Source: Prochlorococcus sp. AG-436-C13
GTDB lineage: Bacteria; Cyanobacteriota; Cyanobacteriia; PCC-6307; Cyanobiaceae
Assembly: GCA_003212695.1 (NCBI GenBank)
Contig: QCPC01000002.1
Coordinates: 1 to 64,000 of the forward strand
Reading direction: 5' to 3'
Length of the DNA stretch: 64,000 nucleotides
Below are positions 36,521-37,405 of this stretch, piece by piece (within the stretch, counting starts at the first letter, position 1; the number at the start of each line of letters is the position of its first letter). The position numbers and the translations under genes are program-made. The notes under the pieces are model-generated. The model made no database searches. It was given only the letters and a program-made list of their open reading frames with translations, and was not told the origin of the DNA.

Positions 36521-36745
36521 TTAATTTAGGTGTTGTGGACATTTTAAAAGACCAATAGCAACAGCTGTAAAATTTAAACTGTCAGAATTTTGTATAACCT
36601 TTCTTACTTCTTGTACACCATACTTTTCACTAGCATCACTGTAAGCTAGTAGAAGAGACCTGTAAGTATCACTACCCTCTGAACGATATTCGCAGAACTT
36701 GTCCGCTACAGAATTAAGTAGAACCATTAATGTTAATTCGACCAT
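36521..36745 (-). CDS. Small hypothetical protein, 74 aa
   Basis: MVELTLMVLLNSVADKFCEYRSEGSDTYRSLLLAYSDASEKYGVQEVRKVIQ. Confidence 0.55.
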   Translation of the reverse strand: MVELTLMVLLNSVADKFCEYRSEGSDTYRSLLLAYSDASEKYGVQEVRKVIQNSDSLNFTAVAIGLLKCPQHLN

Positions 36746-36786: not shown

Positions 36787-36909
36787 ATGCAAAGGCTAAA
36801 CAGAGTAAATACTACAACAAATTGTATTTCCTTAATTTTATTATTATTTTCTATTTCTTTTGCTAGATATTGCAGACTAAAAAAGCTGCTTAAAGGAGAA
36901 ATGCTGTAA
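36787..36909 (+). CDS. Possible 40-aa membrane peptide
   Basis: MQRLNRVNTTTNCISLILLLFSISFARYCRLKKLLKGEML*; 3' end runs into a terminator hairpin. Confidence 0.3.
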   Translation: MQRLNRVNTTTNCISLILLLFSISFARYCRLKKLLKGEML

Positions 36910-36927
36910 ATTCTCAGTTAAGCAGCT
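36884..36927. terminator. Strong hairpin with A/T flanks, possible bidirectional terminator
   Basis: AGCTGCTTAA (36884-36893) / TTAAGCAGCT (36918-36927), preceded by AAAA and followed by ctttttag. Confidence 0.8.
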
Positions 36928-36950: not shown

Positions 36951-37121
36951 TCAATTCTGATAATTGATACCTCGATAAGTAAGAATTGGTATTTGTTGTT
37001 TTGATAAATCTTCTTTTCTGTTGGAGTAGATATTCCTTCTATAGGTAAGCTCAACAAACTGTTTTTGAACAGCTTCTTTATGTTGAACGTAAGCTTTTCC
37101 TCGATAAGTAAGAGTTGCCAT
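36951..37121 (-). CDS. 56-aa small protein with three LTYRG/LTYRR repeats (DUF4278-like); correct frame missed by supplied track
   Basis: MATLTYRGKAYVQHKEAVQKQFVELTYRRNIYSNRKEDLSKQQIPILTYRGINYQN*; AAAGGA Shine-Dalgarno-like site upstream. Confidence 0.85.
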   Translation of the reverse strand: MATLTYRGKAYVQHKEAVQKQFVELTYRRNIYSNRKEDLSKQQIPILTYRGINYQN

Positions 37122-37142
37122 TTGCAGAGTCCTTTGATTTTT

Positions 37143-37200
37143 CCAGGTCCCCGTTCCATGGCCTGGGTGGAACTGCGCCCTGAAGGTATCAGGGTGAACG
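37143..37200 (-). promoter_or_regulatory. Type II glutamine riboswitch (downstream-peptide motif)
   Basis: RNA CGUUCACCCUGAUACCUUCAGGGCGCAGUUCCACCCAGGCCAUGGAACGGGGACCUGG: P1 CGUUC/GAACG, P2 CCCUGA/UCAGGG, conserved GCGCAGU, 3' CCUGG/CCAGG pseudoknot; 21 nt upstream of small ORF. Confidence 0.85.
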
Positions 37201-37222
37201 TTTTGTAGCGGTTGCTACAAAA
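37201..37222 (-). promoter_or_regulatory. Candidate NtcA box
   Basis: TTTTGTAGCGGTTGCTACAAAA, perfect 9-bp arms containing GTA-N8-TAC (37205-37218), directly upstream of the riboswitch. Confidence 0.65.
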
Positions 37223-37405
37223 TCATTCTTATGCTTGCTCTCTTTACCTGGAGTTCATTTTGATACAAAGATGTATTTTTTTTAGATTTAATTAATATTC
37301 TCAGCTATATGCTTCATTGTTTAAGTATTCTTTAGGAGGAAGCACTAGTCAATTGATAGCAATTTGGTTGGCTGTTCTCTTTAGTTCTATGAAAATTCTT
37401 AGAAG

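Follow-up and report, generated by a model that had tools for sequence, protein, structure and literature searches.

The window analysed in this study was a stretch of 64,000 nucleotides from an incomplete Prochlorococcus-type genome, and the nearest named relatives of its 56-aa ORF were found in Prochlorococcus single-cell genomes. The region of interest has the gene order murE-like gene, class V aminotransferase-like gene, 74-aa ORF, DUF4278 ORF, NifU-like gene and mqo, which is the same in the closest relative. The 74-aa ORF (36521-36745, minus strand), which separates the DUF4278 gene from the class V aminotransferase gene, had no match in Pfam or NCBIfam; its place is kept in a relative (L175). 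The features of the DUF4278 gene and its control region are listed in Table 1.

Table 1. Features of the Glutamine-II/DUF4278 unit, given in window coordinates
Feature	Position	Strand	Basis
Upstream element GTATCAAAATGAACTCC, consensus GTATC-N4-YGAAC-N2-C	37250..37266	-	Conservation and promoter alignment
-10 hexamer AAGAAT, weak	37225..37230	-	Promoter alignment and sequence
Predicted transcription start (+1, ± 1 nt), at the opening G of the box	37218	-	Promoter alignment; published Yfr6 mapping
NtcA-type box GTAGCAACCGCTAC (GTA-N8-TAC), +1 to +14	37205..37218	-	Sequence and conservation
Glutamine-II riboswitch aptamer	37142..37203	-	RF01704 covariance-model match
Shine-Dalgarno-like stretch containing AAAGGA	37129..37135	-	Sequence
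56-aa DUF4278 protein, ATG start	36951..37121	-	PF14105 match and coding constraint
Terminator-like stem-loop, followed by T6	36883..36927	-	Sequence

Searching the window with the Rfam model RF01704 gave a match of 70.4 bits (cut-off 33; E = 5.4e-15) that covered model positions 1-60 of 60. The RNA is beyond doubt a Glutamine-II riboswitch, of the class formerly named "downstream-peptide", and the type II glutamine riboswitch that an initial annotation had placed on the minus strand, with comparison to the Rfam models as the proposed check, was thereby borne out. The same assembly contains three Glutamine-II copies, each with a DUF4278 ORF, the two outside this locus having been overlooked in that annotation.

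The Shine-Dalgarno-like AAAGGA and the 56-aa ORF described there also held up, with AAAGGA located approximately 8 nt upstream of the ATG. Its reading of the ORF had missed the DUF4278 identity, which was given by a PF14105 profile match of 39.3 bits (cut-off 25.3; E = 8.8e-10) spanning residues 3-54 of 56. The protein contains three YRG/YRR repeats (TLTYRGKAY, ELTYRRNIY, and LTYRGINY), and their core residues were invariant across 58 aligned relatives. Comparison with the two nearest relatives showed 9/2/21 and 13/3/30 changes at codon positions 1/2/3, respectively; since third-codon changes dominate, the ORF is judged to be translated and constrained. With the nearer relative, dN was 0.12 and dS 0.88, a dN/dS of approximately 0.13, indicating purifying selection. 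No phage relatives of the protein were detected at E 0.01.

Two structural descriptions needed correction. The supposed "strong hairpin terminator" does have a 10-bp stem (AGCTGCTTAA / TTAAGCAGCT; 36927-36918 / 36892-36883) and the T6 run and is plausible, but its 25-nt loop exceeds the limit of 8 set in the consensus terminator scan, in which it was not detected. The "perfect palindrome" is a perfect 9-bp inverted repeat, TTTTGTAGCAACCGCTACAAAA (37222-37201, minus strand), which encloses the NtcA-type box and adjoins the 5′ end of the aptamer; its 4-nt spacer (AACC) is not self-complementary, so the term was slightly too strong.

For comparison, Glutamine-II loci of marine picocyanobacteria were drawn from the window's own genome and from genomes of its genus and family, and 134 loci from 30 genera were aligned on CGTTC, the opening bases of the aptamer; two loci, not anchorable in this way, were left out. 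Most were picked for best aptamer score and all share ancestry, and the counts below therefore describe conservation, not independent events. A YRG-motif protein was encoded at 126 of the 134 loci. GTA-N8-TAC occurred within 50 nt 5′ of the aptamer at 125/134, against approximately 1.5 expected by chance, and began 15-24 nt upstream of the aptamer in all 125; every one of the 30 genera had it. In the 1.55-Mb assembly, the core GTAGC-N4-GCTAC was present at two sites only, both directly 5′ of Glutamine-II aptamers, and the reversed control pattern had zero occurrences. At one locus (L029), the box GTATCCGTTGCTAC was present twice in identical form, one copy beside the aptamer and the other some 50-60 nt farther upstream.

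When +1 is set at the opening G of the box, a TATAAT-like (TAN3T) hexamer lies at -12 to -7 across the family, with letter frequencies in the larger group of loci of T 0.57, A 0.85, T 0.55, A 0.74, A 0.74, and T 0.64. Where the upstream element described below is lacking, a TTGNCA-like -35 hexamer is common at -36 to -31, 18 nt from the -10. These positions in the alignment placed the start at the box. Published mapping agrees: Yfr6 of MED4 begins with G and has a 33-codon ORF from nt 97 (PMC1242208), the window ORF would begin at nt 98, and Weinberg et al. put transcription start about 20 nt upstream of the motif (PMC2864571). The earlier proposal that the box overlaps the start site was thus sustained, and transcription in the window's genome probably begins there.

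By the promoter alignment, the box lies downstream of the -35 position and overlaps the start; in promoters repressed by NtcA, such a box overlaps the core promoter or the start. In Synechocystis, NtcA represses gifA and gifB from core-promoter sites; the reported sites are centred at -30.5 (gifA) and -7.5 (gifB), whereas that of the window would be at +7.5. An ntcA gene is present in the window's genome, and NtcA is the probable binder. The inner bases of GTAGC-N4-GCTAC differ from those of the site that precedes glnA within the genus (GTACTTATTGATAC), and a binder other than NtcA may therefore be possible.

A second conserved promoter element, not noticed in the initial annotation, was located farther upstream. 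It is 17 bp long, and the initial 14 bp have their centre near -41.5. The pattern GTA-N6-YGAAC was present in 95/134 loci, about two thirds, against 0.4 expected, and its distance to the start of the box was 48 or 49 bp in 87 of 88 measurable cases. Its 22-23 nt gap to the -10 is that of the published NtcA-activated class II promoter (GTAN8TAC at -41.5, N22, TAN3T). Position and spacing thus resemble the canonical arrangement; the window differs from it in having AAC instead of TAC in the 3′ half (GTATCAAAATGAAC) and a second box that overlaps the start. Four sites in the window's genome carry the 17-bp pattern, namely the three Glutamine-II promoters and one inside a reading frame. No published description of the -41.5 element was found in a literature search that covered sources other than the primary 2018 glutamine riboswitch paper.

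Several explanations of this element were considered and rejected. A role as a general regulon motif found no support: across 14 genomes from the genus, intergenic sites of the element were nearly all at Glutamine-II promoters, with exceptions 5′ of groES-like and flavodoxin-like genes, and the other occurrences were mostly inside long reading frames. The second CRP-family regulator of the genome (L174) was discarded as the binder, clear relatives of it being missing from many genomes that bear the element (e.g., G003, G068, and G043). Pairing of the element with the aptamer as RNA (TGAACG is complementary to CGTTCA) was dismissed because the start site is downstream of the element. NtcA is a candidate binder.

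The aptamer, the box, the promoter geometry, the coding constraint and the conservation together form the basis for the model that we consider highly probable, a one-gene small-protein unit under two nitrogen controls, namely start-site occlusion by NtcA and a glutamine-ON translational switch. Transcription would begin at the first base of the GTA-N8-TAC box, giving an mRNA whose 5′ end is the box followed by the Glutamine-II aptamer. In nitrogen-poor cells, with 2-oxoglutarate high, NtcA would bind the box and block initiation; when glutamine is high, the aptamer pseudoknot would form, the ribosome-binding site (RBS) would be free, and the DUF4278 protein would be made. Both controls would act the same way, restricting the protein to nitrogen-replete cells. 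In MED4, Yfr6 RNA drops upon nitrogen depletion (PMC1242208), as expected if NtcA represses at the start site.

For the translational step, glutamine binding and ON switching have been published for Glutamine-II relatives of the window aptamer. In the crystal-structure paper, translational control was argued to be likely from the closeness of the aptamer to the start codon; glutamine would stabilise the pseudoknot and free the RBS, an ON switch (PMC6698751). When the window leader was folded with no pseudoknot, its start codon and RBS region were predicted to pair with the 3′ portion of the aptamer, in keeping with that mode. Over 124 loci, complementarity between aptamer and RBS region was only marginally above that of shuffled regions (mean z -0.24); the expression platform of the window's genome is therefore only putative, and the ON direction was taken from the literature.

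As -41.5 is where NtcA activates, control of the promoter may go beyond simple repression. That a two-site design, with a dedicated 17-bp activator element and an NtcA box on the start, prevails among the Glutamine-II promoters of marine picocyanobacteria appears to us possible, if somewhat short of an even chance. A specific version, which we hold tentatively, is that NtcA or another universal CRP-family protein would activate at -41.5 and repress at +7.5, so that expression would peak at intermediate nitrogen and the riboswitch would set translation. The frequency of the element and its fixed spacing from the box speak for this version, as does its gap to the -10. AAC in place of TAC is accepted in published predictions of NtcA sites in Synechococcus WH7803, and Anabaena gifA is believed to carry two NtcA sites, one for repression and one for activation. 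Against these points, the conserved 3′ half GAAC differs from the NtcA half-site TAC, and Yfr6 RNA falls in nitrogen-depleted MED4. The element is also missing from all seven loci of one genus group (g17) and from others, where a -35-like hexamer is found instead, a pattern that looks like the exchange of an activator-dependent promoter for an ordinary one. If the two-site reading were true, three nitrogen inputs, namely activation, repression, and glutamine-gated translation, would tune a small regulon in cells known for very few regulators.

Relative to published parts, the fresh detail of the start-site occlusion model's setting is this second promoter element. The RNA was published as Yfr6 in 2005 and as the downstream-peptide motif in 2010, and glutamine binding, the crystal structure, the DUF4278 target and, for PMM1846, the NtcA motif are likewise already published. 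The arrangement itself is not new; according to the passages of a review that deal with it, PMM1846 of MED4 combines a DUF4278 gene with a type 2 glutamine riboswitch and an NtcA motif in its promoter (PMC6316151). Like the window, PMM1846 has a Glutamine-II aptamer in the 5′ UTR, a protein of approximately 7 kDa with DUF4278, and an NtcA consensus motif. It differs in being another gene copy in another genome, and those passages of the review do not say where the motif lies with respect to the start (PMC6316151). Yfr6 of MED4 and SS120 shares with the window a short transcript starting with G, a Glutamine-II leader, and nearly the same ORF position, and is lower on nitrogen depletion; it is a 244-nt RNA encoding a 33-aa peptide, whereas the window encodes a 56-aa protein with three repeats (PMC1242208). 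The multi-copy habit of Glutamine-II/DUF4278 genes in marine picocyanobacteria has also been noted in that review (PMC6316151). Small proteins stand behind Glutamine-II switches in several copies per genome across this group, and an NtcA-type box predicted to lie exactly on the start of nearly every Glutamine-II gene sampled, in 30 genera, makes the simple dual-control model testable.

The 56-aa protein is most likely a nitrogen-replete regulator that would act on a partner protein through contact. The candidate partner put forward in the literature is glutamine synthetase, an assignment that we consider rather unlikely; inhibition of this enzyme by these DUF4278 proteins is raised as an idea in the review, in the passages concerned (PMC6316151). 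A parallel is gifB of Synechocystis, in which a glutamine-ON riboswitch and NtcA repression are likewise combined and the product, IF17, contains DUF4278; its aptamer is of type 1, and IF17 adds an IF7-like inhibitory half. That the window protein is a stripped-down IF17, dedicated to inhibiting glutamine synthetase, is suggested by the identical nitrogen logic and by DUF4278 being the N-terminal part of IF17, yet we regard it as doubtful. DUF4278 fills residues 3-54 of the 56, so that an IF7-like C-terminal half would not fit; as judged by the described layout of IF17, this half is absent. In the relevant passages of the review, the DUF4278 half is reported to be dispensable for inhibition of glutamine synthetase by IF17, and such inhibition by the small proteins is treated as an open question (PMC6316151). 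A search of solved structures with the 56-aa protein gave no meaningful homologue, and its predicted structure was poor (mean pLDDT 67.6, pTM 0.20), too poor for use in a structure search.

An RNA role for the inverted repeat, as a hairpin at the very 5′ terminus that serves mRNA stability or aptamer folding with NtcA uninvolved, is improbable. GUAGC-N4-GCUAC would stand at the transcript start and forms a stem of 5 bp when the leader fold is predicted, and four Synechococcus-group loci with another inverted repeat there are the main counter-observation to a protein site. On the other side, GTA..TAC is exact in 125/134 loci, and among these the inner pair is C-G in 99, C-A (a mismatch) in 16, T-G (a wobble) in 7, and T-A (compensatory) in only 3. 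Conservation thus lies in sequence rather than pairing, and a protein-binding site explains the box better. The four loci (L047, L052, L063, and L077) belong to one Synechococcus-like genus (g34), have a GTTGAG..CTCAAC-like or GTCGA..TCGAC repeat at the box position, and retain the upstream element.

Variant Glutamine-II aptamers, some of them near the crystallised one, were observed to precede other small proteins, which start with MNxL..I.....RAxRLHxAQL (loci L024, L025, L026, L029, L030, and L198-L209). This family, MNxLxLIRxxxxRAxRLHxAQL, had no match in Pfam or NCBIfam. A protein-profile search of 246 cyanobacterial genomes matched 16, all of marine picocyanobacteria, and a Glutamine-II match was found beside the gene at 12/12 loci fetched, one of them just below cut-off. 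In T4-like cyanophages, the N-terminal module of this family, there MNTLTLIKxQIxKAxxLHDAQI, is joined to DUF4278-like YRG repeats, which ties the two small-protein families together. The fusion loci (L194-L197, around 1201-1368) are those of Synechococcus phages Syn9, S-SM1, S-CAM1, and S-BM1, and the fusion gene lies between nrdB and talC in Syn9, S-SM1, and S-BM1. Upstream of it, both glutamine riboswitch models matched weakly at two of the four loci, S-SM1 and S-BM1.
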